Below, one piece after another: positions 26,762-42,340 of a stretch of DNA of 64,000 nt. Location: positions 5,518,001-5,582,000 of the forward strand of contig NZ_UGQM01000001.1 of assembly GCF_900454025.1 (NCBI RefSeq). The letters run 5' to 3'. The number at the start of each line of letters is the position of its first letter. Position 1 is the first letter of the stretch. Made by a program: the position numbers and the translations under genes. The notes under the pieces were generated by a model that was not told the DNA's origin, ran no database searches, and was given only the letters and a program-made list of their open reading frames with translations. The stretch comes from Mycolicibacterium gilvum. Its GTDB lineage: Bacteria > Actinomycetota > Actinomycetes > Mycobacteriales > Mycobacteriaceae.

Positions 26762-27388
26762 ATGGCGACCTCGTCGCGGCGCGTGGGCGCCGAAACCTCC
26801 AAGACTCGCGACACCCTGCTCGACTGCGTCGAGACGATGATGCTCGAAGAGGGCTACGCGAGTGTCACCTACCGGGCGCTGGCCGCCAAGGCCGGTGTCA
26901 CGCCGAGTCTGGTGCAGTACTACTTCCCCACGCTCGACGACGTGTTCATCGCCGCAATCCGGCGCTACTCCGAACGCAACCTCGCCCACCTGAACAAAGT
27001 GATGGAGAAGCGAGCCGAGGATCCGCTACGGGCACTGTGGGAGTACAGCTGGGACGAGGCCACCGGGACGCTGATGACGGAGTTCATGGCGCTGGGCAAC
27101 CACCGCAAGTCGATCCGCACGGAGATCGCGGCGGTGACCGAGAGCGTGCGGACACTGCAACTGGACGCGCTCACCGCGAAGTTCGGCGCCGACGCCCGCC
27201 CATGGGGCGACCTGTCGCTGCCGGCGCTGCAGTTGCTCATCTCCAGCCTGCCGAAGTTCCTGAACCTGGAGAAGGGTGTCGGTGTGGAGACTGCGCACGC
27301 CGAGCTGATCGAGGCGTTCGAGGGATATCTCGATTCAATCGAGCCAGCCGTGAAGCGGAAACCAGCCCCGCGCAAGCGGTCCCGGTAA
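26762..27388 (+). CDS. TetR-family regulator
   Basis: 208 residues. N-terminal helix-turn-helix LEEGYASVTYRALAAKAGVTPSLVQYYFPTLDDVF (about residues 29-64) and a larger helical ligand-binding region with a basic C-terminal tail (KRKPAPRKRSR). It stands at the left border of the catabolic island, about 90 bp before the first SnoaL/SDR operon, and is a candidate regulator of the island. Its own upstream palindrome differs in sequence from the shared island operator, so the link remains inference. Confidence 0.85.
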   Translation: MATSSRRVGAETSKTRDTLLDCVETMMLEEGYASVTYRALAAKAGVTPSLVQYYFPTLDDVFIAAIRRYSERNLAHLNKVMEKRAEDPLRALWEYSWDEATGTLMTEFMALGNHRKSIRTEIAAVTESVRTLQLDALTAKFGADARPWGDLSLPALQLLISSLPKFLNLEKGVGVETAHAELIEAFEGYLDSIEPAVKRKPAPRKRSR

Positions 27389-27435
27389 TCACTGAAGTCC
27401 GGCCCGACTCCGATGCGTCGTCGCGCCCTGGTGTG

Positions 27436-27451
27436 CTATACAAGTGTACAA
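27436..27451. promoter_or_regulatory. Island operator, site 1
   Basis: CTATACAAGTGTACAA, read on the minus strand as TTGTACACTTGTATAG, fits the island consensus YTGTACGANYGTAYAG except for the AC-to-GA positions near the centre. It contains a TATACA -10-like hexamer (27437-27442) and lies 26 bp upstream of the TTG start of the SnoaL-like gene. Confidence 0.6.
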
Positions 27452-27477
27452 ACACATCATCGCACCGGAGGACGACG

Positions 27478-28032
27478 TTGACCGATTCCACAGAGCTCGA
27501 GGACCTCCGCAAGCGCGTGCAGTACCTCGAGGACCGCACCGCGGTCCTCGACTGCGTGATGAAGCAGGCCCGCGGACACGATCGTCACGATGCCGAGCTG
27601 ATGGGCAGCGTGTACTTTGAGGACGGCATCGACGAACACGGACCGACCGTCAAAACCGGTCCTGAGTATGGCGATTGGGCCAATGAGGCACACACCGCGG
27701 TGTTCGAGGACCATCTGCACAACATCACTACCCACACCTGCGAGATCGACGGCGACGTCGCGCACGCCGAGAGCTACGTGATGGGCGCGATGCGGGTCAA
27801 GGGCGGCAAGATCGTGTCGCTGATGGGCGGACGCTACATCGACCGGCTGGAACGCCGCGACGGTGTCTGGAAGATCGCCCTGCGCCGCTGCACCATCGAG
27901 TGGATGATCAGCGGCGATTCCTCGATCCTGAGCAAGAGCGCGGTCAAGGGCTTCATCAAGGGCCAGTGGGACAAGACCGACGCCTCCTACCTCCGCCCAC
28001 TGAAGCTGGACGATCCCGTCGACCGGTGGTGA
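27478..28032 (+). CDS. SnoaL-like/NTF2-fold protein
   Basis: 184 residues from TTG 27478, supported by GGAGGA 5 nt upstream. An NTF2-like fold of the SnoaL/ring-hydroxylating-beta type (VLDCVMKQARGHDRHDAELMGSVYFED, EDHLHNITTHTCEIDGDVAHAES, RYIDRLERRDGVWKIALRRCTIEWM). Family members are isomerases, dehydratases or binding proteins in steroid, polyketide and aromatic pathways. It is followed 4 bp later by an SDR, suggesting consecutive steps. A very long frame running in from upstream is an artefact. Confidence 0.75.
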   Translation: MTDSTELEDLRKRVQYLEDRTAVLDCVMKQARGHDRHDAELMGSVYFEDGIDEHGPTVKTGPEYGDWANEAHTAVFEDHLHNITTHTCEIDGDVAHAESYVMGAMRVKGGKIVSLMGGRYIDRLERRDGVWKIALRRCTIEWMISGDSSILSKSAVKGFIKGQWDKTDASYLRPLKLDDPVDRW

Positions 28033-28036
28033 CGGC

Positions 28037-28822
28037 GTGAACCTCGCCGGACGTGTCGCGCTGGTGACCGGAGGTGCGTCCGGCATCGGGCGCGCGACCG
28101 CCGTGCGGTTGGCCGCCGAGGGCATGCAGGTGTGCGTGGTCGACATCGACGGTTCGGCGGCCGAGGAGGTCGCCGAATCTTTCGGAGGGATCGGATTGCG
28201 CTGCGACGTCACCGATCCCGACCAGGTCGACGCAACATTTGCCGCCTGCGTCGCCGGTTTGGGCAGGCTGGACCTCGCGTTTCTGAACGCCGGCGTCACC
28301 ATCGAGTGGTCGGGGGACATCGGTTCCCTCGACGTGGCCCAGTACCGGCGCTCGGTCGGGGTGAACGTCGACGGTGTGGTGTTCGGCGCCCGAGCGGCGG
28401 TGCGGACCATGCAATCGTTGGGGGCCAACACCGATCGGGCGATCCTGGCGACCGCGTCCCTGGCCGGCCTGATGCCCTGGCATGCCGACCCGGTCTACTC
28501 GCTGGGTAAGCACGGCGTCGTCGGGTTCATGCGTTCGATCGCCCCGAACCTGGCCGCCGAAGGTATTGCGGTACATACCATCTGCCCAGGGATTACCGAG
28601 ACAGGTGTGCTGGGCGACCGGCGCTCCCTCGTCGAACGCATCGGTGTCCCCGTGATGGAGCCCGACGCGATCGCCGATGCGGTCATGGTTGCGTTGGATG
28701 CGCCCGCGGACGCCACCGGGACGTGTTGGGTGGCGCAATACGGAAAACCAGCCTGGCCCATGGCATTCGCGCCGGTGGAGAGCCCTGACAGCCGACTGAA
28801 CGTGCCGGTCCGTCTGCGTTAA
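28037..28822 (+). CDS. Short-chain dehydrogenase/reductase
   Basis: 261 residues from GTG. Classical SDR: TGGASGIGRA cofactor loop, acidic residue after strand 2 (VVDIDGS, favouring NAD), NAG-type motif (FLNAGVT), active-site Ser region ATASLAG and YSLGK (Tyr and Lys). Probably NAD-dependent oxidation of a secondary alcohol in the island pathway. It is in an operon with the SnoaL-like gene and converges on a P450 gene with a 4-bp overlap. Confidence 0.85.
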   Translation: MNLAGRVALVTGGASGIGRATAVRLAAEGMQVCVVDIDGSAAEEVAESFGGIGLRCDVTDPDQVDATFAACVAGLGRLDLAFLNAGVTIEWSGDIGSLDVAQYRRSVGVNVDGVVFGARAAVRTMQSLGANTDRAILATASLAGLMPWHADPVYSLGKHGVVGFMRSIAPNLAAEGIAVHTICPGITETGVLGDRRSLVERIGVPVMEPDAIADAVMVALDAPADATGTCWVAQYGKPAWPMAFAPVESPDSRLNVPVRLR

Positions 28823-30000
28823 CCGACGATCGCGGGCATCGAATCCCAGCCCCGCACCGTGGCCGTGGGGGCACGGTGCGCGTTGTCCTCGTCGATCGTC
28901 CAGTCGGGCCAGCGCTTCAGGATCTCCTCCAGAGCGATACGCCCCTCGATACGGGCCAGGGATGTCCCGAGGCAGAAGTGCGCCCCACGCCCGAAGGTGA
29001 GGTGGTTGGGGTTGCGCCGGATGTCGAACACGTCAGGGTCGTCGAACCGGCGCTCGTCCCGGTTCGCCGCACCTGCCATCAGCAACAGCGCACTGCCGGC
29101 CGGCACCGTCTGGCCGTGGTACGTCACGTCTTTGGCCACGTACCGGGCGATGTTGTGCACCGGGGGCTCCACGCGCAGGATCTCCTCGATGGCCCCGGGA
29201 ATCAGGGACGGGTCGGCCGCGAGTTCCCGGCGTGCATCCGGATGGTCGGCGAGTACCTTGCCGAGCCAGCCGAACAACCGGCCCACGGTCTCGGTTCCCG
29301 CGTTGGCGATGACACCGAGAAAAACCAGCAGTTCCTCCTCCCGGAGCTTCCGCCTGCTTCCGTCGACATCCTCGAACTCGACATTGAGCAACTCGGTGAC
29401 GAGATCGTCGGATGGGTTATCCTTGCGCCACGCCACGTAGTCACGAAACATGTTGCCGTTGAAGTAGTTGTCCTTCTTCACCGGCAGCGGCTCACCCGGC
29501 TTGTTACGTAGGCGCGCACCGGCGGCCTTACGGACACTGCGCTGCAGCGAGTCTGGCATCCCGACCAGCATGCCGATCACCCGCATCGGCATCTCCGCGC
29601 CCAGATCGAGGGTGAAGTCGAAGCGGTCCCCACCCTGCAGCGGATCCAGGCAGGCCGTACAGAATGCCCTGACCTGCTCCTCGATCGCCTTCATCTTGCG
29701 CGGGGTGAACGCCCGCGACACCAGCGGTCGATGCACGGTGTGCACCGGCGGGTCCTCGTTGATGAACACCCCGTCCGGCATCACAGGTTCGGCTTTGACC
29801 ACCTCGAGGATGTCGCCTTTGGCATTGCTGAGGTTATCGACGTCCTTGAGCGCGGAATCGACGTCGGCGAACCGGCTCAGAGCCCAGAAGTCGAGCTTCT
29901 CGTTGTAGTACAACGGCGCTTCGTCACGTAGCCGCTTGTACACCGGGTACGGGTCGACATCGATCTCGACGTTGTAGGGGTCGTAATACAGGCCGCTCAC
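28819..30000 (-). CDS. Cytochrome P450 (island copy A)
   Basis: 393 residues from GTG 30000 (MSGLYYDPYNVEIDVDPYPVYKRL). Heme-binding FGRGAHFCLGTSLARIE with C343; I-helix oxygen motif NAGTETVGRL; ExxR-type motif in AIEEILRVEPP. Bacterial class I P450, needing a ferredoxin and reductase that are not in this window. It is clearly paralogous to the P450 at 36774. The start codon directly abuts the 16-bp operator; TACGAT inside the operator would place +1 on the GTG, so a leaderless mRNA is likely. Substrate unknown. Confidence 0.9.
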   Translation of the reverse strand: MSGLYYDPYNVEIDVDPYPVYKRLRDEAPLYYNEKLDFWALSRFADVDSALKDVDNLSNAKGDILEVVKAEPVMPDGVFINEDPPVHTVHRPLVSRAFTPRKMKAIEEQVRAFCTACLDPLQGGDRFDFTLDLGAEMPMRVIGMLVGMPDSLQRSVRKAAGARLRNKPGEPLPVKKDNYFNGNMFRDYVAWRKDNPSDDLVTELLNVEFEDVDGSRRKLREEELLVFLGVIANAGTETVGRLFGWLGKVLADHPDARRELAADPSLIPGAIEEILRVEPPVHNIARYVAKDVTYHGQTVPAGSALLLMAGAANRDERRFDDPDVFDIRRNPNHLTFGRGAHFCLGTSLARIEGRIALEEILKRWPDWTIDEDNAHRAPTATVRGWDSMPAIVG

Positions 30001-30016
30001 CTGTACGATCGTACAG
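30001..30016. promoter_or_regulatory. Island operator, site 2 (perfect palindrome)
   Basis: CTGTACGATCGTACAG is a perfect 16-bp palindrome between the divergent P450 and LLM genes, immediately before the P450 GTG. It is the best match to the consensus of the five island sites and probably covers the P450 -10 element. Confidence 0.75.
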
Positions 30017-30043
30017 CACAGCACCATGCCCGAGGGAGAGTCG

Positions 30044-30892
30044 ATGCACATCGGATTCGTCAGCATGAACACCCCGGACGACATCGCCCCCGACGTTCTG
30101 GCCCGTGAATTGGAACAGCGCGGGTTCGAGTCGCTGTGGGTCGGTGAGCATCCGCAGATCCCGGTGTCCGCCGCGGGCTCGATGCCGCCGGCGCTGTTGC
30201 ACGCCCAGCAGCGAATCTGGGACCCGCTGCTGTCCCTGCTCGCCGCCGCGCAGGCCACTTCGACGCTCCGGCTCGGCACCGCGGTTGCGCTCCCGCTGGA
30301 GCACGAGTTGTTCACGTTCGCAAAGCAAGTGGCGACGCTGGACCGGTTCAGCGCCGGCCGGCTTCTGTTGGGAGTCGGGGTCGGGGTGCGGGCCGAACTC
30401 GCGGTATCGAGCTCGATCGCGTGGGCCGACCGCTACCGGGCGCTGTCGGACATGGTCGCCGCGCTACGGGTGTTGTGGACCGACGACGAGGCCGAGCATC
30501 ACGGCGAGTTTTACGATTTCGAGCCGGTGTGGTGCCACCCCAAGCCGCAACAGCAGGCGGGCCCTCCGCTGCTCGCCGCGGCCACCGGACCCAGGGCGAT
30601 CGGAGACTGCCTACCGTGGGCCGACGGGTGGCTTCCCGGCGATGCCGCGTACCGTGACCTCCCTGCGGCGGTGGCGGATTTCAGGCGGCGAGCCGAGGAT
30701 GCCGGCCGGGACCCGGCCACGCTCGACCTGACGGTCATGGCGTGGGGAGACCCGTCGGAGAAGCGCCTCGCCCGATACCGGGACCTCGGTTTCACTCGCG
30801 TCGTGATCGGCGGGGGCCGGCGCGACGGCGACCCTTCGACCACGGTGCCATTCCTCGATCGTTACGCCGCGATGGTCACCGAACTCAAGTAA
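30044..30892 (+). CDS. LLM-class flavin/F420-dependent oxidoreductase
   Basis: 282 residues. A luciferase-like monooxygenase barrel: MHIGFVSMNTPDDIAP, GLPESLWVGEH-type FESLWVGEHPQIP, and RLLLGVGVGVRAE. Mycobacterial members commonly use F420. ATG 30044 is preferred over ATG 30026 because GGGAGAG sits just upstream. It is divergent from the P450 and shares the palindromic operator. Probably an oxidation or monooxygenation step in the island pathway; the substrate cannot be read. Confidence 0.8.
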   Translation: MHIGFVSMNTPDDIAPDVLARELEQRGFESLWVGEHPQIPVSAAGSMPPALLHAQQRIWDPLLSLLAAAQATSTLRLGTAVALPLEHELFTFAKQVATLDRFSAGRLLLGVGVGVRAELAVSSSIAWADRYRALSDMVAALRVLWTDDEAEHHGEFYDFEPVWCHPKPQQQAGPPLLAAATGPRAIGDCLPWADGWLPGDAAYRDLPAAVADFRRRAEDAGRDPATLDLTVMAWGDPSEKRLARYRDLGFTRVVIGGGRRDGDPSTTVPFLDRYAAMVTELK

Positions 30893-31313
30893 CCGGGCGG
30901 AACCGCTCGGCGACCAACTCGATCAGCTGGCCGTCGGGATCGCGGACCATGCAGGCGAATCCGCCACCGGGGTCGGCGACGACGGCTCCCCCGGCGGCCG
31001 TCACCGCGTCCCGGGCGGTGACGAGATCAGCGACGGCGAGAGACAGATGGGTCAGTCCCGCACCGACCATGCCGCGCTCGGGCTCGTCGCGCGCCGGGTA
31101 TCCGGCGAACGTCAACAGTTGTAGCACTACACCGCCGTTGCGCAGGTACACCGCCTCGAATCCGATCGGTGGCGCCAACCCCAGCAGGCCCTGAGCCATC
31201 TGATCCGGCACCGTCAGACGCTTCACCTCGGTGAAGCCGAGCGCGGTGTAGAACTTCAGAGACGCCTCCAGATCGCGCACCCGGAGCCCGACGTGACTGA
31301 CGTCCATGCTCAC
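30885..31313 (-). CDS. VOC-family (glyoxalase/dioxygenase-like) protein
   Basis: About 142 residues from GTG 31313, which overlaps the upstream SDR stop (GTGA); ATG 31307 is possible. Paired beta-alpha-beta-beta-beta units with the metal-site pattern H (VSHVGLRVRD), H (LTHLSLAVAD) and E (GQLIELVAERF). VOC proteins include glyoxalases, epimerases and extradiol dioxygenases; at this size a single two-module unit acts as a dimer. It is in an operon with the SDR; a role as epimerase or isomerase on a CoA ester or as ring-cleavage enzyme is open. Confidence 0.75.
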   Translation of the reverse strand: MSMDVSHVGLRVRDLEASLKFYTALGFTEVKRLTVPDQMAQGLLGLAPPIGFEAVYLRNGGVVLQLLTFAGYPARDEPERGMVGAGLTHLSLAVADLVTARDAVTAAGGAVVADPGGGFACMVRDPDGQLIELVAERFRPVT

Positions 31314-32080
31314 ACCCCTGCCGGGCCGGGGCCGCCGTGCATGTAGAGCGTCTGCCCGGAGCAGTAGCTCGACGCGTCGGAGGCGAAGAACAGCACGCCG
31401 TAACCGATCTCGTCGGGCTCGGCGATGCGGCCCGACCCATTGGTCTGCCCGATCATGTCGATGTCGAAGCCCTGACGTTTCGCATCGGCCTCCAGTCCCG
31501 GGGTACGGACCGCCCCGCAGGCGATGCAGTTGACGCGCACGCCTTTGCGCGTCCATGCCGCGGCCATCGATCCGGTGAGGTTCTGCAGACCGGCCTTGGC
31601 GGCCCCGTAGATCGGTGCCTGCGGCATGGCCAGCAGGCCGGCGCCGGAGGAAATGTTGACGATCGCGCCGCTGCCCTGGGCGATCATCGGCTTGGCCGCG
31701 GCCCGGGACAGGTACCACGCACTGGACAGGTTCAGGTCGAGCACATGATGCCACTCGTCGTCGGTCCACTTCATCAGCGACTTCGTCTCACCGCCGCCGG
31801 CGTTGTTGAGCAGTACGTCGAGGCGGCCGAACTCGGCGAGTGTGGTGTCGACCAGCGCCTGGCAGGCGTCCGCATCGGTGACGTCGGTCGGGACCGCGAG
31901 GGCGCGCCGTCCCAGCGCCTCCACCTCTGCGGCGGTCTCCTTCAACGGCTCCGCGCGCCGTCCGGCCAGCACCACGTCGGCGCCGTGCTCTGCCAGCACC
32001 AGTGCCGACGCGCGGCCGATGCCGGTGCCGCCGCCGGTGATGACCGCGACCCTGCCTTCCATCGAAAACCTGTCGCTCAC
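31310..32080 (-). CDS. Short-chain dehydrogenase/reductase
   Basis: 256 residues from GTG 32080, with GGAGTGAT upstream. Cofactor loop TGGGTGIGRA, basic residues GRRAEPLKE after strand 2 (suggests NADPH), NNAGG motif, Ser in NISSGAG and IYGAAK (Tyr, Lys). The C-terminal YCSGQTLYMHGGPGPAGV is typical of FabG-like SDRs. First gene of a two-gene minus-strand operon with the VOC protein, preceded by island operator site 3. Confidence 0.85.
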   Translation of the reverse strand: MSDRFSMEGRVAVITGGGTGIGRASALVLAEHGADVVLAGRRAEPLKETAAEVEALGRRALAVPTDVTDADACQALVDTTLAEFGRLDVLLNNAGGGETKSLMKWTDDEWHHVLDLNLSSAWYLSRAAAKPMIAQGSGAIVNISSGAGLLAMPQAPIYGAAKAGLQNLTGSMAAAWTRKGVRVNCIACGAVRTPGLEADAKRQGFDIDMIGQTNGSGRIAEPDEIGYGVLFFASDASSYCSGQTLYMHGGPGPAGV

Positions 32081-32109
32081 AGCATCACTCCCATCGATCG
32101 GCCATCGTG

Positions 32110-32125
32110 CAGTACGACTGTACAG
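32110..32125. promoter_or_regulatory. Island operator, site 3
   Basis: CAGTACGACTGTACAG lies between the divergent SDR (minus) and nitroreductase (plus) genes. It matches the island consensus YTGTACGANYGTAYAG at all but one position (second base). Confidence 0.65.
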
Positions 32126-32167
32126 CATCTGTGGTGCTGGACACCCCGGCTTGAGTCGAGTACACCA

Positions 32168-32845
32168 GTGGACATGCCGCATCCGACCGACAACGTCTGG
32201 GAAGTGCTGTCCACCGCCCGTTCGATCCGGCGCTTCACCGACGAACCCGTCGACTCCGCGACCCTGGACCGCTGCCTGCAGGCAGCCACCTGGGCGCCCA
32301 ACGGCGCCAACGCACAGCTCTGGCGGTTCATCGTGCTGGACGGTCCCGAGCAGCGCGCCGCCGTAGCCCAGGCCGCTCAGATCGCGCTGCAGTCAATAGA
32401 ATCCATCTACGGCATGACCCGGCCCGCTCCCGAGGACGACAGCCGATCCGCCCGCAACAATCGCGCCACCTACGAACTGCACGACCGGGCAGGCGAATTC
32501 ACCTCGGTGCTGTTCGTCGCCTACAAGAACGAATTCTCGTCGGAGTTCCTGCAGGGCGGCTCCATCTACCCTGCGCTGCAGAACTTCTACCTGGCGGCCC
32601 GAGCGCAAGGCCTCGGCGCGTGTATCACCAGCTGGGCCTCCTACGGCGGCGAACAGGCCCTGCGCGAGGCCGTCGGTATCCCCGACGAATGGTTTCTCGC
32701 CGGGCATGTCGTGGTGGGCTGGCCGCGGGGTAAGCATGGTCCGGTGCGGCGCCGCCCGCTGTCGGACGTGGTGTTCCGCAACCATTGGGATCCCGAACGC
32801 GCGGACATCACCTACGGGCGCGGCGCCAGACCTCGCGGCAAGTGA
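32168..32845 (+). CDS. Nitroreductase-family FMN oxidoreductase
   Basis: About 225 residues (GTG 32168; ATG 32174 also possible). Nitroreductase fold: VLSTARSIRRFTDEPV, ATWAPNGANAQLWRFIV (FMN phosphate and ring contacts), YPALQNFYLAARAQGLGACIT and HVVVGWPRGKHGPVRRRPLSDV. Family members use FMN and NAD(P)H to reduce nitro compounds, quinones or enones. Within this island an ene- or quinone-type reduction is more plausible than nitro reduction; this is inference. It is divergent from the SDR/VOC operon at operator site 3. Confidence 0.8.
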   Translation: MDMPHPTDNVWEVLSTARSIRRFTDEPVDSATLDRCLQAATWAPNGANAQLWRFIVLDGPEQRAAVAQAAQIALQSIESIYGMTRPAPEDDSRSARNNRATYELHDRAGEFTSVLFVAYKNEFSSEFLQGGSIYPALQNFYLAARAQGLGACITSWASYGGEQALREAVGIPDEWFLAGHVVVGWPRGKHGPVRRRPLSDVVFRNHWDPERADITYGRGARPRGK

Positions 32846-32846
32846 C

Positions 32847-33749
32847 CTAACCTTCGCGTGCGAGTGCCGCGAGAAGCGCGCGGGTGCGTTTCACCGAGGC
32901 CGACCTCTGCGCTCGATCCGCGCCCACCGCGACGGGTTGAGCCCACACGTCCGTCGCGCCGGCCTCGATCAACTCCACGAGCTGCCGGGTCACCGCCGCT
33001 TCGTCGCCGACGATCCCGACGTCTGCGGCGGATGCTCCTCCCCCGGCACGGATGATGTTCTGGTAGTTGCTCATTCGCTCGTATCCGCCCGCTGTCGCGG
33101 CGATCGCTTCCCGCGCCTCCCGGATGTCGTCGTGCACGGCGACCGGCAGGCCTGCGACGATTCGGCCGCCGGCGACGGCCGGTGCGATCCGCTCGGCGAT
33201 CGCGGTCGCGGTCGCCAGCCACAGCACCACGCCGTCGGTGAATTCGGCTGCCACACGCAGCATTCGGGGTGAGAGCGCCGACAGCAGTACCGGGACCGGG
33301 TGGTCGAGTGCGGTCATCCGACCGGCGCTGTGCGCGGTCCAGTCGGTGCCGTCGAGGTCGATGTCGGCACCGGCCAGCAGGCCGGTGACGATCTGCACGT
33401 ACTCGCGGGTGTTACGGACCGGATGGTCGTAGTTCAGCCCCAGCACATTCCGGACGATCGGCTCGTGCGACGGCCCGAGCCCCAGCGTCAGGCCGGGCCG
33501 CCCCATCGCGTTCGCCGCCGCCGCGACGCGGTTGGCCTGCAGCAGCGGGTGGCACGGATAGGTCTGCAGCACTGCGGTGCCCAACTCGATCGTCGAGGTG
33601 GCCCTACCGGCAAAGGCCATCGCGACCAGTGGATCACCCGCCACGGCACTGGCGTACCACAGCGCGGCGAAGCCGTCGGCCTCCGCCTGCTGCGCCTGCG
33701 CGACGATCTTGTCGACGCTCGACCCGCCGCCGGTCAGTCCGATCCGCAT
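32847..33749 (-). CDS. LLM-class F420-dependent oxidoreductase
   Basis: 300 residues. N-terminus MRIGLTGGGSSVDKIVAQAQQAEADGFAALWYASAVAGDPL and GRPGLTLGLGPSHEPIVRNVLG match a mycobacterial subfamily of F420-dependent luciferase-like enzymes. Last gene of a four-gene minus-strand operon (SDR, P450, SDR, LLM) that starts near 36700. F420H2-dependent reduction or oxidation of a pathway intermediate is expected. It converges with the nitroreductase gene, 1 bp between stops. Confidence 0.82.
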   Translation of the reverse strand: MRIGLTGGGSSVDKIVAQAQQAEADGFAALWYASAVAGDPLVAMAFAGRATSTIELGTAVLQTYPCHPLLQANRVAAAANAMGRPGLTLGLGPSHEPIVRNVLGLNYDHPVRNTREYVQIVTGLLAGADIDLDGTDWTAHSAGRMTALDHPVPVLLSALSPRMLRVAAEFTDGVVLWLATATAIAERIAPAVAGGRIVAGLPVAVHDDIREAREAIAATAGGYERMSNYQNIIRAGGGASAADVGIVGDEAAVTRQLVELIEAGATDVWAQPVAVGADRAQRSASVKRTRALLAALAREG

Positions 33750-33753
33750 GGTC

Positions 33754-34614
33754 TCATCGCATCACATGGGCGCACTGGGCGGGTGGGTGCACGTCGAACA
33801 TCTCGCGGTACGAGGGTGGTTGCCGATCCCCTTCGTCCCTGATCCCGTACTTGACCGCGAGTTCGGCACCGATCAGAGTCTGGCCGCTCAGCGCCATCAC
33901 CTCGGGATCCTGGTGCAACGCCCAGATCACGTGCCCGGTCAACTCCGGCGTCTCGGCGGTGTCGAGGATACGTCCGAACTTCTCCGGATTGCTCGCGATG
34001 ATGCCGCGCACCCGGTCGGTCAGCAGCGATCCCATCCAGATCGACACCGCGGCGATGCCGACATCGCGGAAGTCGTAGGCCATGTCGGCGGCCATCTTGT
34101 CGGTGGCGGCTTTCGGGACACCGTAGGCGGGTCCGAACGCGTAGTGCACGGCACCGGAGGAGGACGTGAACACCACCAGGCCCCTGCCGTTGGGCACCAT
34201 CAGCGGCGCGGCGTAGACGGTCGCGACGTAGCTGCTGCGCACCCCGACGTCGAGGGTGTCGATGACATTGATCGGTTCTTCCCAGAACTTGGTACGTCCC
34301 ATCATCTCGTCACGGATGATGGCCGCGTTGTTGACCAGGATGTCGATGCGTCCGTGCTCGCGGGCGATCTGATCGAAGAACGCCGCGACCTGCTGGTCGT
34401 CACTGTGATCGACGCGGACCGCGATGCCCTGCCCACCGGCGGCGGTGACCTCGTCGGCTGTCTCACCGATGGTGCCCGCGGCGGGACCGTCGGGGTCGAC
34501 GGTGCGGCCGGTCACGTAGACGGTGCAGCCGTGCATTCCCAGCGCGTGTGCGATCCCGGCCCCGGCGCCACGGCTGGCTCCGGTCACCACCGCGACCGGG
34601 CGGTCGGCGGTCAT
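33754..34614 (-). CDS. Short-chain dehydrogenase (DHRS1-like)
   Basis: 286 residues. TGASRGAGAGIA cofactor loop, TGRTVDPDG after strand 2, VNNAAI, Ser region TSSSGAV and YGVPK (Tyr, Lys). The long C-terminal part (PELTGHVIWALHQDPEVMALSGQTLIGAELAVKYGI) is as in DHRS1-type SDRs. Its ATG overlaps the stop of the upstream P450 (ATGA), pointing to coupled translation and probably oxidation of the P450-made alcohol. Confidence 0.83.
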   Translation of the reverse strand: MTADRPVAVVTGASRGAGAGIAHALGMHGCTVYVTGRTVDPDGPAAGTIGETADEVTAAGGQGIAVRVDHSDDQQVAAFFDQIAREHGRIDILVNNAAIIRDEMMGRTKFWEEPINVIDTLDVGVRSSYVATVYAAPLMVPNGRGLVVFTSSSGAVHYAFGPAYGVPKAATDKMAADMAYDFRDVGIAAVSIWMGSLLTDRVRGIIASNPEKFGRILDTAETPELTGHVIWALHQDPEVMALSGQTLIGAELAVKYGIRDEGDRQPPSYREMFDVHPPAQCAHVMR

Positions 34615-35957
34615 ACCGCCTCCTCGATGCGCGCGGCGTCCTTGAGCTCGGTGATCGGTCGCGCCAATCCCTGCTCATCGCAGATCTTCTGGAGTCTGGC
34701 GACGGTTTCGGCCACCCCGGCGCCCCGTCGCGGGCCGGGGGTGAACTCGGCGGGCAGGTGACGCATGCCCTGGATGACCCCGATGCTGTCGTAGTGCACG
34801 GTCTCCTTCGGCAGGCAGCGGTAGTCGGGCATCCGGTCGAGCACCGCGGTGAGCATCGATTTGAACACCGTACGCGCCACGTTGGATCCGATACAGCGGT
34901 GGACGCCGAGGCCGAAGCTGAAGTGCCGGTTGCCCTTTCGGTCCAGCACGATCTGATCCGGGTCGGTGAACACCGCGGGATCGCGGTTGGCCATCGCCCA
35001 GGACAGCCACAGCCGCTGCCCTTCCCGCAGCTCCACACCGTTCACGGCGACGTCTTCGGCGATCGTGCGGGCATCTCCCGGTGCCGGCGTGAAGTACCTC
35101 AGGAATTCCTCCGTCGCCGGATTGAGCAGCGTGTCACGGTCGGCGCTGAGCCGGGCGCGTTCGTCGGGATGCTCGGACAGCCATTCCAGCGCGTGGGCAG
35201 TCAGAGCGGTGGTGGTGTCGAAGCCGCCGCCGATCAGCAGGTTCAGCATGCCGATCAGCTCGATGTCCGGCGGTGCCTCACCGTCGATGCGCAACGTCGC
35301 CAGCGCGTTGATGATGCCGGGCCGGGGATTGTCGCGGATCTCCATCAGATTGGTGAACAGGTCGATGCCCATGGCCATGTACAGCTCGCGGACACGCTCG
35401 GCATCCGGCGAGTCCGGCGGTGTGTAGACCGACGCGTGCGCCGGTTCGTTGTACATCTCCCACTTCTGCAGGGGCACACCGAGCATCGCCAGGGTGAGCA
35501 CCGCGGGCACCACGTTGGCCAGGTCGTCGACGAAATCGATGCGGCCGGACTCGATCCGGTCGTCGAGGCAGGCGCAGACGATCTCGTCGACGAACGGCTC
35601 CCAGCGTTTCACCGCCGCCGGTGACAGGTACGGGTTGAGTGCGGTGCGGTAATGGCGGTGCTCCGGGTCGTCCATCTCGAGCATGCCGCCACGGAAGCCC
35701 TCGGCCTCCAACATCCGCGGGATCGAGATGCCCTTGTATCCGCGCCGTTCGTTGTTGACGTCGTGATCGTTGGACACGAACGGACAGCGCGCCAGTTCGA
35801 ACACCGCGTCGCTGCTCGCCGCCACCCAGTGTCCGTCGTAGGTGTCGGTCCACGCCAGCGGGCACTGCTGGTGCATCTCGTGGGTGATGTCGAGGAACCT
35901 GTCCCGGTAGTCGGGGCGGTGCCGGTCGAAGTCGTAGCGCAGCGTCTCGGGGTTCAC
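34611..35957 (-). CDS. Cytochrome P450 (island copy B)
   Basis: 448 residues from GTG 35957, overlapping the upstream SDR stop (GTGA). Heme motif FSFGLGVHRCIGSNVAR with C355; I-helix GGGFDTTTALTA. Its oxygen-binding helix lacks the usual acidic-Thr pair order (FDTTT), and the protein is about 50 residues longer than the other two P450s, with a C-terminal extension after 415. It belongs to a different P450 family from copies A and C. Middle of the SDR-P450-SDR-LLM operon. Confidence 0.9.
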   Translation of the reverse strand: MNPETLRYDFDRHRPDYRDRFLDITHEMHQQCPLAWTDTYDGHWVAASSDAVFELARCPFVSNDHDVNNERRGYKGISIPRMLEAEGFRGGMLEMDDPEHRHYRTALNPYLSPAAVKRWEPFVDEIVCACLDDRIESGRIDFVDDLANVVPAVLTLAMLGVPLQKWEMYNEPAHASVYTPPDSPDAERVRELYMAMGIDLFTNLMEIRDNPRPGIINALATLRIDGEAPPDIELIGMLNLLIGGGFDTTTALTAHALEWLSEHPDERARLSADRDTLLNPATEEFLRYFTPAPGDARTIAEDVAVNGVELREGQRLWLSWAMANRDPAVFTDPDQIVLDRKGNRHFSFGLGVHRCIGSNVARTVFKSMLTAVLDRMPDYRCLPKETVHYDSIGVIQGMRHLPAEFTPGPRRGAGVAETVARLQKICDEQGLARPITELKDAARIEEAV

Positions 35958-36700
35958 AGCACCGCACCGCCGTTCACACCGATGACCTGACCCGTCACGT
36001 ATCCGGCGGCGTCCGAGCACAGGAACGAGCACACTGCGGCGACATCGGACGGGGCGCCCACGCGGCCCGCCGGTATGGCCTGGGTCAGAAACTCGTCCGG
36101 CGGCAGTTTCCCCTCTGACTGCTGTCTGCGCAGCATCGGGGTCTCGATCGCGAAGGGCGGCAAGGAGTTCGCGGTGATGCCGTGGCGTGCATAGTCACGC
36201 GCCACGGTCTTGGTCATCGCGATCACGCCGCCCTTGGTCGCCGAGTAGTGGCCCTGGCGTGGTGCGCCCTGCTGGCCCGCTGCGGACGAGATCGTCACGA
36301 CGCGCCCCCATTGCGCGGCGACCATGTCCGACAGCGCGGCACGAATGCTCAGGAACGTCCCCGTCAGATTCACCGCGAGGTAGCGGTTCCACTCGTCGAG
36401 GGTGATCTTGTCGAAGCGGGTGAAACCGCCGATCGCCGCGCTGGTGACCAGGATCTCGACGGGGCCGAATTCGGTTCGTACGGCGTCGAAGGCGCGCACG
36501 ACGGCGTCCTCGTCGGACACGTCGACCGCGACACCGACCGCGCTCGCTCCGTTACCGCGCAGGCTTGCCGCGACCCTGTTCGCCGCGTCCGCGTCGAGGT
36601 CGAGCACGGCCACCCGGTGCCCGTCGGCGGCCAGGCCCGCACAGATCGCCTCGCCCAGCCCCGACGCCCCGCCGGTCACCACCGCTACACGGCTCACCAC
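35954..36700 (-). CDS. Short-chain dehydrogenase (FabG-like)
   Basis: 248 residues from GTG 36700 (GTG 36697 possible), with AGGAGA upstream. TGGASGLGEA cofactor loop, LDLDADAA acidic residue (NAD preference), Ser region TISSAAG and YSATK. The C-terminal SDAAGYVTGQVIGVNGGAVL is typical FabG-like. First gene of the four-gene minus-strand operon driven from operator site 4. One of five SDRs in the island, each likely acting on a different alcohol or keto intermediate. Confidence 0.85.
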   Translation of the reverse strand: MVSRVAVVTGGASGLGEAICAGLAADGHRVAVLDLDADAANRVAASLRGNGASAVGVAVDVSDEDAVVRAFDAVRTEFGPVEILVTSAAIGGFTRFDKITLDEWNRYLAVNLTGTFLSIRAALSDMVAAQWGRVVTISSAAGQQGAPRQGHYSATKGGVIAMTKTVARDYARHGITANSLPPFAIETPMLRRQQSEGKLPPDEFLTQAIPAGRVGAPSDVAAVCSFLCSDAAGYVTGQVIGVNGGAVL

Positions 36701-36713
36701 ATCTCCTCACACG

Positions 36714-36729
36714 CTGTACGAATGTATAG
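36714..36729. promoter_or_regulatory. Island operator, site 4
   Basis: CTGTACGAATGTATAG lies between the divergent SDR-P450-SDR-LLM operon (minus) and the P450-SDR operon (plus), and matches the consensus fully. TATAGC at its right end is a possible -10 for the plus-strand operon. Confidence 0.7.
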
Positions 36730-36773
36730 CACAGGCTATATGCTCGCACGAACCAGCCGGCAAGGAGAGCACG

Positions 36774-37961
36774 TTGAGCGATCTGTACTACGACCCGTGG
36801 CACGTCGACATCGACATCGACCCCTACCCGACCTACCGCAGGTTGCGCGACGAGGCGCCCGTGTACCGCAACGACGAGCACGGCTTCTGGGGCTTGAGCC
36901 GGTACGCCGATGTGGATGTGGCGCTGAAGGATACGACGCGGCTCAGTTCCGCCAAGGGGGACATCCTCGAGGTCGTCATGGCGGATCCGGTGATGCCCCC
37001 CGGCATCTTCATCAACGAGGACCCGCCACTGCACACCATCCACCGCGCGATCGTGGCCAGAGCGTTCACACCGAAGAAGATGCGGGCGATCGAGGACAAG
37101 ATCCGCGCGTTCTGCGTCGCGTGTCTCGATCCGCTCGTCGGTGGCGACCGGTTCGACTTCGTCGAGGACCTGGGCGCCGAACTTCCCATGCGTACGATCG
37201 GCATGCTCGCCGGCATCCCCAACTCCGAACAGCCGGCGGTGCGCGAACATGCCAACGAAGTGCTCCGCAATGAGGCCGGCAAGCCAATGGCGATCGACAA
37301 GGACCGCTACTTCACCGGCGAGATGTTCGGCGAGTACATCGAATGGCGGGAGAACAACCCGTCCGACGACCTGATCACCGAGCTGCTGAACGTCGAGTTC
37401 GAAGACGAGACCGGCACGGTCCGCAAGCTGACGAAGCAGGAGCTCACCGTGTTCCTCGCGGTCGTCGCCGGCGCCGGCGTCGAGACCACCGGCCGCCTGT
37501 TCGGCTGGATGGGCAAGGTGTTGGCAGAGCACCCGGATCAGCGCAAGGAGCTGACCAGCACCCCTGCATTGATCCCGTCCGCGATCGAGGAACTACTGCG
37601 CTTCGAACCACCGGGTCCCCACGTCGCACGCTACGTCGCCACCGACGACGTCACGTTCCATGGGGTCGTCATACCGGCGGGAAGTCCGCTGCTGTTGATG
37701 CTTGCCTCCGCCAACCGCGACGAGCGGCAGTTCGACGATCCCGACCGCTTCGACATCCACCGCAAGCAGGGCGGTCACCTCACCTTCGGTCGCGGGGCCC
37801 ACTTCTGCGTCGGCGCTCCGCTGGCCCGGCTCGAGGGCCGCGTGGCCCTCGAAGAGGTGCTCAAACGCTGGCCGGAGTGGGACATCGACATGAGCGGAGC
37901 CCGACGATCGCGGACCTCGACCGTGCGCGGTTGGGACTCGATGCCCGCGGTCATCCGATGA
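36774..37961 (+). CDS. Cytochrome P450 (island copy C)
   Basis: 395 residues from TTG 36774, supported by AAGGAGAG upstream and by alignment of its N-terminus (MSDLYYDPWHVDIDIDPYPTYRRL) with copy A. Heme motif FGRGAHFCVGAPLARLE with C345; I-helix AGAGVETTGRLFGWM; EELLRFEPP. Highly similar to the P450 at 28819 along the whole length, so a duplication. It overlaps a mycofactocin-type SDR by ATGA, consistent with hydroxylation followed by alcohol oxidation. Confidence 0.9.
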   Translation: MSDLYYDPWHVDIDIDPYPTYRRLRDEAPVYRNDEHGFWGLSRYADVDVALKDTTRLSSAKGDILEVVMADPVMPPGIFINEDPPLHTIHRAIVARAFTPKKMRAIEDKIRAFCVACLDPLVGGDRFDFVEDLGAELPMRTIGMLAGIPNSEQPAVREHANEVLRNEAGKPMAIDKDRYFTGEMFGEYIEWRENNPSDDLITELLNVEFEDETGTVRKLTKQELTVFLAVVAGAGVETTGRLFGWMGKVLAEHPDQRKELTSTPALIPSAIEELLRFEPPGPHVARYVATDDVTFHGVVIPAGSPLLLMLASANRDERQFDDPDRFDIHRKQGGHLTFGRGAHFCVGAPLARLEGRVALEEVLKRWPEWDIDMSGARRSRTSTVRGWDSMPAVIR

Positions 37962-38779
37962 CAGGCAGTACATCCCGCGTCGCGGTGATCACCGGCGCCG
38001 CGCGTGGACAGGGTCGAAGCCATGCCGTGGCACTGGCCGGACAGGGCATCGACATCATCGCCGTCGACCGCTGCGCCGACATCGACTCCATTCCCTATCC
38101 GCTGGCAACCGCGGCCGACCTCGAGGAGACCGCCGAGCAGGTGCGCGCGGCGGGCGGACGGATCCATACCACGGTGGCCGATGTCCGCGATCTCGCCGAA
38201 CTCCGCGCCGGAATCGACTCGGGCATCGAACGCTTCGGCGACGTCGACATCGTGGTGGCCAACGCCGGAGTCGTCGCGATCGGCTGTCCCGACCCCGACG
38301 ACGATCAGCTGTACCGCGACATCGTCGACGTCAATCTGATCGGCGTCTGGCACACCATCGCCGCGACGGCACCGTCGATGATCCGCCGCGGGACCGGTGG
38401 ATCGATGGTTCTGATCAGCTCGATGCAGGGTCTGGTCGGGCGCGGCGGCGACGGCAGCGCGGCGACCTTCGCCTACGCGGCGTCCAAACACGGCGTCGTC
38501 GGCCTGATGCGCTCCGCTGCCAACGCGTATGCCCCGCACAACATCCGGGTGAACTCGATCCGTCCGACCGGCGTCGCGACGCCGATGATCATCAACGAGC
38601 ACATGGCGCGGGTCTTCGAGGCCAACCCGGAGGGCAGTGCGATGTCGGGGAACCTGCTGCCGGTGCCGTTCGTGGAGCCGGTCGATGTGACTGCGGCCGT
38701 GATGTACCTGGTCAGCGACGGCGCCCGCTACATCACAGGCACTGCGCTGCCCGTGGACGCCGGATTCGCGGTGATGTGA
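37958..38779 (+). CDS. Mycofactocin-coupled SDR oxidoreductase
   Basis: 273 residues. SDR core TGAARGQGRSHA with the insertion typical of mycofactocin-dependent SDRs after strand 2 (AVDRCADIDSIPYPLATAAD), NAGVVAIG, SSMQGLVG and FAYAASK (Tyr, Lys). This subfamily holds NAD tightly and passes electrons to the redox peptide mycofactocin. It is translationally coupled to the P450 upstream, so it likely oxidises the alcohol that P450 forms. Mycofactocin biosynthesis genes are not in the window. Confidence 0.85.
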   Translation: MTGSTSRVAVITGAARGQGRSHAVALAGQGIDIIAVDRCADIDSIPYPLATAADLEETAEQVRAAGGRIHTTVADVRDLAELRAGIDSGIERFGDVDIVVANAGVVAIGCPDPDDDQLYRDIVDVNLIGVWHTIAATAPSMIRRGTGGSMVLISSMQGLVGRGGDGSAATFAYAASKHGVVGLMRSAANAYAPHNIRVNSIRPTGVATPMIINEHMARVFEANPEGSAMSGNLLPVPFVEPVDVTAAVMYLVSDGARYITGTALPVDAGFAVM

Positions 38780-38781
38780 GA

Positions 38782-40389
38782 TCAGCTGGCGTGCAGAATG
38801 AAATCCGCTGCGCGCCAAGCCATCGCCATGATCGGTCCGTTCAGGTTTCCGGCCACTATCGTGGGCATCACCGAGCAGTCCACCACCCGTAGGCCGTCCA
38901 CCCCGCGGACACGCAGGTGGCTGTCGACGACATCGTCGTCGTCCGGCCCCATCGCGCAGGTGCCCACGGCGTGGTATCCGCAGTAACCGCCTTCCAGCGC
39001 GGCGTCGACGAGTTCCGCGTCGCTGTCGACCCGCGGACCGGGGTAGGTCTCGTGGCTGATGCGCTCGGCGATCGGTGACTGTTCGAAGATCGAGCGCATC
39101 CGGCGCACCAGGGCGGCGGTCGCCGTCCGGTCGTGCTCGGTCGTCAGATAGTTCGGGGTGATCCGCAGCGCCGCACCCGGATCGGCCGACGTGATCTCGA
39201 CGTAGCCCTGCGACGTCGGCCGCAACACCATCCCCAGACACGAGATGCCGGGTTCACGTTCGATGACGACCGGCTCACCGGTGTTGTAGGGCGGCAGGGT
39301 CCACGGCCCCATCATCACCTGCCCGAACGGGCGCTCGGAGTCCGGCTGGCCCTTGACGAAGCCAACGACGTCGAACGACGGTGCCGCCAGCGGCCCCTTC
39401 CTGGTCGCCAGGTATTTCATCCCGGTCAGCGCCTGACCGGCATTCGTCGCGAGCAGCTTGTTGTATCCGAGGTCCTCTTTGAGCCGGTATCGCAACGTGG
39501 CGCAACGGTGTTCACGCATCCGGCGGCCCACGTTGTCCCGCTCGACGAACACCGGCACCCCGGCGGCGCTCAGCACATCACTCGGCCCGATTCCGGAGAG
39601 CTGCAACAGCTTCGGGGAGTTCAGGCTGCCCAGCGAGAGCACCACCTCGCGCGCCGCCCGGACCTGTTCGGTGCCGGCGCCCGTCGCGATCTCCACGCCG
39701 TCGGCGCGTTCACCGTCGAACAGCACGCGGCGCACGGTGGCTCCGGTGCGCACCGTCAGATTCGGGCGGTGCAACACCGGCTTGAGGAACGCCGTCGCGG
39801 CACTGACACGACGCCCGCCACGGATCGTCGACGTCGCGTATCCGATACGCTCACCGTCGGATTCGTTGATGTCGCGGACGCGCCACATACCCGCGCCGGT
39901 TGCCGCCTCGATCATGTCCTCGCACAGCGGATCCGGGTCACGCGGTACGGAGATGTGCAGCGGGCCGCCGGCGCCGCGGGTGTGCGACGGGCCGAACTCG
40001 TGGTTCTCGAATCCCTTGAAGATCGGCAGGATCTCGTCCCAGCCCCAGCCCGTGTTGCCCATCTGCACGAGCGCGTCGTAGTCCGCCCGGTGGCCGCGGT
40101 TGTAGATCATGCCGTTCACCGCACTCGATCCACCGATGACCTTCCCACGCATCCACTGCTCGACGTGGGCGTCCGGACCGAACGGCGTGGTCTCGTAATG
40201 CCACATGTACCGCTCGCTGTCGAAAAGCTTGCCCGCTCCCTTCGGGATGTGCAGCCACGGGTTGCGGTCACCGCGCCCGGCCTCGAGTAACAGCACCCGG
40301 ATCGCGGGATCGGCCGAGAGCCGGTTGGCCAGCACGCACCCGGCCGACCCGGCCCCGACGACGATGTAGTCGTAACCCGTCACTGCCAA
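38782..40389 (-). CDS. GMC-family FAD alcohol oxidoreductase
   Basis: 535 residues. FAD motif YIVVGAGSAGCVLANRL, GMC signature GGSSAVNGMIYNRGH, second signature LSLGSLNSPKLLQLSGIG, and C-terminal HAVGTCAMG with active-site His. Choline-dehydrogenase-like enzymes oxidise primary alcohols to aldehydes; some mycobacterial members are thought to use mycofactocin. TTG 40389 is preferred as start because AGGAG lies 5 nt upstream; GTG 40383 is the alternative. Single gene facing left from operator site 5, converging with the mycofactocin SDR. Confidence 0.88.
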   Translation of the reverse strand: MAVTGYDYIVVGAGSAGCVLANRLSADPAIRVLLLEAGRGDRNPWLHIPKGAGKLFDSERYMWHYETTPFGPDAHVEQWMRGKVIGGSSAVNGMIYNRGHRADYDALVQMGNTGWGWDEILPIFKGFENHEFGPSHTRGAGGPLHISVPRDPDPLCEDMIEAATGAGMWRVRDINESDGERIGYATSTIRGGRRVSAATAFLKPVLHRPNLTVRTGATVRRVLFDGERADGVEIATGAGTEQVRAAREVVLSLGSLNSPKLLQLSGIGPSDVLSAAGVPVFVERDNVGRRMREHRCATLRYRLKEDLGYNKLLATNAGQALTGMKYLATRKGPLAAPSFDVVGFVKGQPDSERPFGQVMMGPWTLPPYNTGEPVVIEREPGISCLGMVLRPTSQGYVEITSADPGAALRITPNYLTTEHDRTATAALVRRMRSIFEQSPIAERISHETYPGPRVDSDAELVDAALEGGYCGYHAVGTCAMGPDDDDVVDSHLRVRGVDGLRVVDCSVMPTIVAGNLNGPIMAMAWRAADFILHAS

Positions 40390-40412
40390 CTCTGCTCCTC
40401 GTCGCCCCGCTG

Positions 40413-40428
40413 CTGTACGAACGTATAG
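40413..40428. promoter_or_regulatory. Island operator, site 5
   Basis: CTGTACGAACGTATAG lies 23 bp upstream of the GMC oxidoreductase start (minus strand) and 39 bp upstream of ligC2. It matches the consensus fully. On the minus strand it supplies TATACG-like -10 bases for the GMC gene. Confidence 0.7.
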
Positions 40429-40467: not shown

Positions 40468-41568
40468 ATGGCGGGGATGCGCCTTCCCGTGATGCCCCCG
40501 CTCTCACCGATGCTCTCGAAGTCGGTGCAGCAGATCCCGGACGGCGCCTCGTATGAACCGAAGTGGGACGGCTTCCGGTCGATCGTGTTCCGTGACGGCG
40601 ACGAGATCGAGTTCGGCAGCCGCAACGAACGCCCGATGACCCGTTACTTCCCGGAGCTTGTCGCGGCGGCCCGCTCCGAGCTTCCCCCGCGCTGCGTCGT
40701 CGACGGCGAGATCGTGATCGCGACCGCCGGCAGACTCGACTTCGAGGCGCTGCAGTTGCGTCTGCACCCGGCCGCATCGCGGGTCACCATGCTGGCGGAG
40801 AAGACCCCGGCGTCCTTCATCGCGTTCGACCTGCTGGCTCTCGGCGACACCGACCTGACCGGCCGCCCGTTCACCGAACGGCGCGCGGCACTGGTCGACG
40901 CGCTCGCCGATGCCGGGCCGACGTTCCACGTCACCCCGGCCACCCGGGACATCGCGCTGGCCACCCGATGGTTCGAGGAGTTCGAGGGCGCGGGCCTGGA
41001 CGGGGTGATCGCCAAACCTGTCGACGGCGTCTACCTGCCGGACAAGCGGACGATGTTCAAGATCAAGCACCGGCGCACCGCCGACTGTGTGGTCGCGGGG
41101 TACCGATTGCACAAATCCGGTGACGACGCCGTCGGCTCGCTGCTGCTCGGGCTCTACGACACCGACGGCGCGCTTGCGTCGGTCGGCGTGATCGGTGCGT
41201 TCCCGATGGCGCGGCGACGTGCGCTTCTCGCCGAATTGCAGCCGCTGGTGACGACCTTCGACGAGCATCCCTGGAACTGGGCTGCGCACGCCGACCCGGA
41301 CGTCGTCCGCCGGCACGGCGGTGGCTCACGGTGGAACGCCGGCAAGGACCTGTCCTTCGTGCCGCTGCGCCCCGAACGGGTTGTCGAAGTGCGCTACGAC
41401 CACATGGAGGGCAGGCGGTTCCGCCATATGGCGCAATTCAACCGGTGGAGACCGGACCGCACGCCGCGCTCGTGCACCTTCGATCAGCTCGAGCAGCCGG
41501 TGAGTTTCAGCCTCGACGACATCGTGCCGGGCCTCACGCCGCGTGCAGGGCGTCCATATAGGTCGTGA
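40468..41568 (+). CDS. ATP-dependent DNA ligase LigC (copy 2)
   Basis: 366 residues. Motif I YEPKWDGFRS with adenylated K32; VVDGEIV, FIAFDLLALG, GLDGVIAKPVDG, MFKIKHRRTADC; OB fold ending RRFRHMAQFNRWRPDR. It is a full-length paralogue of the ligase at 23878-24939 with all catalytic motifs intact but without a polymerase partner. M. smegmatis also carries two LigC genes close together; here about 15.5 kb of catabolic genes separates them. ATG 40468 and ATG 40477 are both possible. Its 3' end overlaps the TetR gene on the other strand by 35 bp. Confidence 0.92.
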   Translation: MAGMRLPVMPPLSPMLSKSVQQIPDGASYEPKWDGFRSIVFRDGDEIEFGSRNERPMTRYFPELVAAARSELPPRCVVDGEIVIATAGRLDFEALQLRLHPAASRVTMLAEKTPASFIAFDLLALGDTDLTGRPFTERRAALVDALADAGPTFHVTPATRDIALATRWFEEFEGAGLDGVIAKPVDGVYLPDKRTMFKIKHRRTADCVVAGYRLHKSGDDAVGSLLLGLYDTDGALASVGVIGAFPMARRRALLAELQPLVTTFDEHPWNWAAHADPDVVRRHGGGSRWNAGKDLSFVPLRPERVVEVRYDHMEGRRFRHMAQFNRWRPDRTPRSCTFDQLEQPVSFSLDDIVPGLTPRAGRPYRS

Positions 41569-42136
41569 CGTATTCGTCGATGACCGGTGCGCGAATTTCT
41601 CGGGACTCCGGCATCGTGATCAGCAGCGCGTACAGCCCCACCAGGAACGACACCCCGCGCAGCATCACGTCGACGTCGGCGGGGATCTCCCCCCGGTCGC
41701 GTGCCCGCTCCAGGTCCTCGACGACGGCGACGATCACCGGATGCGCCGACCACTCTTCGGAGGGTGGCCGCCTGGTCGAGAAGTGCAGCGCGAGGAAGTC
41801 TTTGAACAACCGGCTGCCCAGCCGCCGTTCGAGGGCCTCGAGAACCGTGACCGCTTTGGTCAGCGTCGCCCGGACATCGTGGGGACGCCGGTAGAACCGC
41901 GTCAATTCGGCGGCCATCCGCTCCTGCTCGCGGTTCTCCAACTCGACCAGCACGTGCTCTTTGGTCGGAAAGTGGAAGAAGAAGGTGCCGTGCGCGACTC
42001 CGGCTGCCGACACGATCGCACCGATGTCGGCCGCGGCCATACCGTCGCGCTTGAACTCCGCGATCGCCGCGCCCAGGAGGCGCTCGCGCGTCTGCTCCCC
42101 TTTACGTCCGCGCTCGGGTGTCCTCGACTTCAGCAC
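41534..42136 (-). CDS. TetR-family regulator
   Basis: 200 residues. HTH at about residues 15-65 (LLGAAIAEFKRDGMAAADIGAIVSAAGVAHGTFFFHFPTKEHV). The C-terminal helical domain (LLITMPESREIRAPVIDEYVTTYMDAL) is a ligand pocket of unknown specificity. It is divergent from the membrane/oxidase operon that begins at 42355, and TGACTYRARTCA-type repeats lie in the intergenic region, so it very likely controls that operon and itself. Confidence 0.88.
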   Translation of the reverse strand: MLKSRTPERGRKGEQTRERLLGAAIAEFKRDGMAAADIGAIVSAAGVAHGTFFFHFPTKEHVLVELENREQERMAAELTRFYRRPHDVRATLTKAVTVLEALERRLGSRLFKDFLALHFSTRRPPSEEWSAHPVIVAVVEDLERARDRGEIPADVDVMLRGVSFLVGLYALLITMPESREIRAPVIDEYVTTYMDALHAA

Positions 42137-42193: not shown

Positions 42194-42207
42194 CTGACTT
42201 GAATCAG
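42194..42207. promoter_or_regulatory. Candidate TetR operator, left copy
   Basis: CTGACTTGAATCAG, an imperfect palindrome, lies 57 bp upstream of the TetR start. It shares the TGACTYRARTCA core with the copy at 42329-42340. Confidence 0.55.
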
Positions 42208-42328: not shown

Positions 42329-42340
42329 TGACTCAAGTCA
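42329..42340. promoter_or_regulatory. Candidate TetR operator, right copy
   Basis: TGACTCAAGTCA has perfect 5-bp arms and lies 14 bp upstream of the GTG of the membrane/oxidase operon, just before AGGAGG (42344-42349). Binding here would block the promoter or early transcript of the operon. Confidence 0.6.

Follow-up and report, generated by a model that had tools for sequence, protein, structure and literature searches.

We identified a common short palindrome in the promoters of a ~13-kb cluster of oxidation enzymes, hereafter the island, in the soil-type mycobacterium Mycolicibacterium gilvum. The five copies are very likely operators through which the neighboring TetR-family protein TetR1 controls a single local regulon; a TetR1 dimer would block the promoters until released by a ligand. 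A single local regulon with the TetR protein at 26762 as its regulator is strongly supported by the co-occurrence of motif and gene, by their proximity, and by the fact that the operator turns up again in the reshuffled islands of related genera; the repressor-plus-palindrome pair extends through related bacteria out to Frankia. A first-pass annotation of this DNA had pointed to five 16-bp sequences and a single regulon of about 13 kb. Its observation is real and confirmed: all five sequences were found at their coordinates and strands in the window, by which we mean the whole 64-kb stretch analyzed, taken from a genome of 6.43 Mb, and the three lines of evidence above bear out the single regulon. 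What is new is a TetR regulon in a family of well-known type, and that it is real is well supported.

The five operators are CTATACAAGTGTACAA (27436..27451), upstream of SnoaL-SDRa; the perfect palindrome CTGTACGATCGTACAG (30001..30016), between P450a and LLM1; CAGTACGACTGTACAG (32110..32125), between SDRb and the nitroreductase gene; CTGTACGAATGTATAG (36714..36729), between SDRd and P450c; and CTGTACGAACGTATAG (40413..40428), upstream of the GMC gene. The 27436 site is kept in aligned relatives, and the next three are likewise backed by the relatives’ alignment. Under their own matrix the sites scored 22.5, 26.5, 21.0, 25.5, and 25.0 bits, respectively (range 21.0–26.5), and the runner-up in the window reached 9.3. 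A matrix derived from 116 distinct sites in 49 distant loci of relatives ranked the same five at the top (20.7–26.3 bits; runner-up 8.7; best score in 60 Markov-shuffled 64-kb sequences, 18.3), which is a consistency test and not an independent one, since the window matrix had served to select its training sites. As the first-pass annotation had it, the sites lie only in gaps between genes: none of them shares a base with a coding sequence, though only 392 of the island’s 14,807 bases are intergenic. The -10-like elements that it saw in the sites come down to a degenerate TANNNT, which can be read by eye within every palindrome on one strand or both (it is missing on the SnoaL-facing strand of the 27436 palindrome); an E. 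coli-type promoter scan found no promoter.

The consensus first proposed, YTGTACGANYGTAYAG, proved too strict, as two of the five sites break it, 32110 by an A at position 2 and 27436 by AC in place of GA. Relatives instead yielded a 20-bp palindrome, YG-CTRTACRNNYGTAYAG-CR (151 distinct sites, 49 loci), whose strongest conserved part is TAC..GTA. Across these 151 sites, both flanks add two informative bases (0.55 and 0.70 bits), beyond which the content falls below 0.1 bits, suggesting an operator length closer to 20 bp than to 16 bp.

Plausibly, the five sites control about eight transcription units with 14 genes in all. The genes comprise three P450s, five SDRs, two F420-type LLM oxidoreductases, a nitroreductase, and VOC, SnoaL, and GMC proteins. 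Where five promoters had been described, we thus retain five operators but predict about eight units, because 30001, 32110, and 36714 each lie between divergent genes; operon limits were taken from gene spacing alone. Following tetR1 (26762..27388, forward strand), the first unit encodes a SnoaL-like protein (27478..28032, forward; PF13577, 69 bits) and SDRa (28037..28822, forward; NCBIfam SDR models). P450a (28819..30000, reverse; PF00067, 86 bits, scanned from the second codon) and LLM1 (30044..30892, forward; TIGR03619, 199.6 bits against a cut-off of 166.9) would each form a unit of their own. Next come SDRb-VOC, both on the reverse strand (SDRb, 31310..32080, from a profile search; the VOC/glyoxalase-like protein, 30885..31307, PF00903, 53.7 bits), and the nitroreductase-family protein (32174..32845, forward; PF00881, 101 bits). 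The longest predicted unit, SDRd-P450b-SDRc-LLM2, is read from the reverse strand and contains SDRd (35954..36700) and SDRc (33754..34614), both from profile searches, P450b (34611..35957; P450 models), and LLM2 (32847..33749; TIGR03564, 280.8 bits against 234.25). P450c, with a TTG start (36774..37961, forward; P450 models), is predicted to be joined to SDRe, of the mycofactocin-coupled SDR family (37958..38779, forward; TIGR03971, 348.2 bits against 300), and the GMC oxidoreductase stands alone (38782..40389, reverse; PF00732/PF05199, under the cut-off of the MftG model). The GTG start of P450a directly abuts the 30001 operator in the window and in five of 12 other loci shown, which suggests that its transcript may be leaderless.

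At the far end, the 40413 site probably belongs to the GMC gene and not to ligC (40468), which probably lies outside the regulon. Membership of ligC is unlikely given that relatives have a site before GMC with no ligC beside it (L094, L095, L167, L169, and L173); in L171, ligC is ~1.2 kb away from the site preceding GMC. Beyond the island, the window also holds a diol dehydratase reactivase-like gene (45523-47226; PF08841).

In genome-wide pattern scans, a check of the kind that the first-pass annotation had suggested, most one-mismatch sites were clustered in the island. Allowing at most one mismatch, CTRTACNNNNGTAYAG occurred at eight genome sites, five of them in the 13-kb stretch (binomial 2e-12, a post-hoc figure for a stretch chosen for its sites); the other three lay well inside an open frame (978063), at the extreme 5' end of a called frame (241474), and within no called gene (5923941). 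At up to two mismatches the pattern sank into background, with 150 sites versus 219 for the reversed control. With one mismatch, YTGTACGANYGTAYAG recovered four island sites and one elsewhere (811474), missing 27436. Exact matches to TRTACNNNNGTAYA numbered four in 6.43 Mb, all four inside the island, versus two for the reversed control pattern; as a zero-order estimate puts the chance expectation at ~3 per genome, it is the clustering that counts and not the number. That expectation is the point in favor of explaining the sites as chance or a dispersed repeat, but given five of eight one-mismatch sites within 13 kb and a cross-genus conservation that beats shuffles, we reject this explanation as scarcely credible. 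A genome-wide regulator is likewise disfavored, the best sites being confined to one island.

The conservation across genera was measured in related loci, of which a search returned 59; two distant, site-less ones were dropped, leaving 57 tetR1 loci that range from Mycobacterium to Frankia. A site of at least 18 bits was present in 53 of the 57, amounting to 183 sites in 1.04 Mb versus one in 285 shuffled loci; 39 kb of other stretches of the M. gilvum genome contained none at that threshold. At 14 bits or more, a threshold run with no shuffle control, 56 of the 57 loci had a site, the exception (L123) having tetR1 and no site at this level. According to a crude gene caller, 148 of the 183 sites fell outside genes and 35 in longest-start frames, mostly near 5' ends, and 164 of 206 genes neighboring sites were homologues of window genes. 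The island genes recur in altered order and orientation with sites lying between them, and the sites are kept while the flanking sequence diverges. In 33 of the 57 loci a site lies within 200 bp upstream of tetR1, which fits autoregulation; the window’s own tetR1 has no site upstream. Neighboring sites formed 55 pairs less than 120 bp apart, and 35 of these were spaced by 16–24 bp, as would suit two dimers per promoter.

We then compared motif and regulator in a sample of 297 same-genus genomes, searched separately for each. Orthologues of tetR1, scoring at least 281 bits, were present in 60 genomes, and the next proteins fell to 186 bits or below. The strict motif occurred in 54 of these 60 genomes, compared with 14 of the 237 lacking an orthologue (p = 5e-39, a figure that ignores genome relatedness), and the six tetR1 genomes without it had matrix-level sites close to tetR1 (L167-L170, L174, and L091, the last presumed to be G008). 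In 52 of the 54 genomes with both, the distance from tetR1 to a site was at most 15 kb, and 108 of 114 sites lay within 25 kb; strict sites far from tetR1 were seen in G165 (on another contig) and G279 (3.5 Mb away). Through this co-occurrence and proximity, tetR1 (26762-27388), already singled out in the first-pass annotation, is very probably the regulator of the island palindromes, to which its product would bind. The protein has an N-terminal TetR helix-turn-helix domain (PF00440, 28.6 bits against a cut-off of 24) and a palindromic operator near its gene and targets, both as expected for the TetR family; its structural model is all-helical (pLDDT 87.6), and its Foldseek matches are TetR proteins. 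All 58 aligned tetR1 sequences have VQYYF at the recognition helix. Among 15 readable paralogues, 11 have VHYYF and four VQYYF, so that the helix is compatible with the regulon but not peculiar to it. A tetR1 relative in L125 (991-1563) has an in-frame stop in the helix-turn-helix region.

Nine of the 14 genomes that have the motif without tetR1 were examined. In six, two palindromes of the TGTACGNNTGTACA type overlapped in tandem, at ~1480-1535 in L011, L014, L025, L028, L030, and L039, and in L030, the one tandem tested, the next gene encodes an SMR efflux pump. We presume that such tandems belong to regulators of the Rv3066/mmr kind. Two single sites adjoin other TetR-like frames, recognized by eye, in genomes with no tetR1 (L026, 911-1468; L031, 834-1481), and L023 showed no clear gene beside its site.

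These loci raise the question of whether another TetR protein with a similar operator, encoded elsewhere and AcnR-like or of the SMR-efflux type, controls the island sites, which we consider very unlikely. The operator consensus of AcnR from Corynebacterium glutamicum, a TetR-family regulator, is the 16-bp inverted repeat CAGNACnnncGTACTG (PMC2723105), and it has the same TAC-N4-GTA core as the island sites. However, the outer bases are CAG..CTG in AcnR and CTR..YAG in the island, not one of the five sites fits the AcnR consensus over its whole length, and the motif follows tetR1 in presence and position. The SMR-efflux palindromes resemble the island sites and stand upstream of the SMR gene in L030, but there they overlap as a tandem pair next to an efflux gene, and the genomes concerned lack tetR1. 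AcnR and the SMR-efflux locus are other systems with similar operator cores. The island contains no aconitase gene; PF00330 matched at 2107468 and 2728852 of G000:C1. On the same contig, CAGTACGGGCGTACTG (L175, 803465-803480) fits the AcnR consensus ~100 bp upstream of a frame in which a start resembles isocitrate lyase and not aconitase.

Two further candidates for the regulator fared worse still. TetR2 (41534-42136), at the opposite end of the island, is no more than 1.2 kb from the 40413 site, but its homologue occurred in only one of the 57 site-carrying loci (L111) and in none of eight further loci; we reject it, leaving it a negligible chance. In the gap between TetR2 and the gene at 42355, TGACTTGAATCA (42195-42206) and, on the opposite strand, TGACTTGAGTCA (42329-42340) might form TetR2’s own operator, but a pair of matches at two mismatches is what chance would give (mean 1.5). 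A lux box has the spacing CTG-N10-CAG, and this spacing is the only feature that suggests a LuxR-type reader of the sites, together with one listed paper that contains TCGTACAG and deals with a LuxR-repressible promoter. Against this, the scan of the island genes named no regulators other than TetR proteins, the strongest conserved part of the site is TAC..GTA, and the motif follows tetR1, so a LuxR-type regulator is exceedingly improbable.

With TetR1 as the regulator, the best reading of its action is the ordinary TetR-family mechanism, in which dimers sit on promoter palindromes and are released by a ligand. A TetR1 dimer would bind each ~20-bp palindrome, and the palindromes would overlap or abut the promoters of the approximately eight units, so that a bound dimer may block transcription. 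Entry of a small molecule into the C-terminal pocket would then free the DNA; the likeliest candidates are the substrate and an early product of its oxidation. TetR1 could instead act as a ligand-dependent activator, since the sign of regulation is not readable from sequence and the scan found no E. coli-type promoter against which the sites could be placed. We regard this as improbable: the sites adjoin start codons, and in the window as in five relatives one runs right up to the P450a GTG, an arrangement that suits occlusion; moreover, most studied TetR proteins are repressors (PMC3511530).

Repression by TetR1 would have parallels near P450 genes. TetR repressors of P450 operons, CamR among them, lie beside P450 genes and are thought to be released by a substrate. 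The island is likened to them by description, in that a TetR repressor adjoins P450 genes (on such repressors, see PMC3814354); it differs in having five dispersed operators over about eight units. MftR is also a TetR-family protein, and the island has one mycofactocin-coupled SDR, but TetR1 does not fit MftR: TIGR03968 was not among the 11 NCBIfam matches of TetR1, and the MftR palindrome, T-N2-GGCA-N5-TGCC-N2-A (PMC8728441), is unlike that of the island. KstR was set aside on its model, NF033703, which was also not among these 11 matches.

The enzyme families suggest that a hydrophobic, probably cyclic compound is oxidized step by step. The closest solved sequence to P450b is P450cin (172 bits), and the best for P450c reached ~200 bits, neither of which fixes the substrate. 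The Foldseek matches of TetR1 are generic TetR proteins, from which no ligand could be inferred, and the names of its relatives are equally generic (best 120 of 1,383). No publication on this regulon was found by motif strings or by system among the matches listed, in a search that left most subscription literature outside its scope; GTACGATCGTAC was in none of the matches listed, whose titles were unrelated. We lean towards the view that the pair of TetR1 and 20-bp palindrome is the signature of an actinobacterial oxidative pathway, widely shared and undescribed, whose genes changed order from Mycobacterium to Frankia under an unchanged operator code. Its parts would be P450s, F420-type and, in 15 loci, NtaA/DmoA-type flavin monooxygenases, a mycofactocin-type SDR, and GMC, which would place P450, F420-type, and mycofactocin-type redox enzymes together under one switch. 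If this is true, the operator lists the parts of the pathway and the ligand of TetR1 would name its substrate, making an operator scan a way to find pathway members and, through the regulator’s ligand, the substrate. For an oxidative pathway whose function these searches did not reveal, there is now an operator, a regulator, and a set of genes that can be put to the test.

The islands of relatives add a sulfotransferase, CoA-transferase, amidohydrolase, CMD, TauD, and aldehyde dehydrogenase (nine of 10 proteins matched), again without fixing the substrate. The NtaA/DmoA-type monooxygenase (TIGR03860, 471 bits) adjoins a site in the 15 loci and is absent from the window. A 455-aa protein of this type lies between tetR1 and the operator in the close relatives L070 (10628-11995) and L073 (10635-12002), and its absence from 27389-27477 of the window suggests a loss or gain. 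In L172 (6661-13738), ~7 kb of other sequence separates P450a from SDRa, compared with the window.
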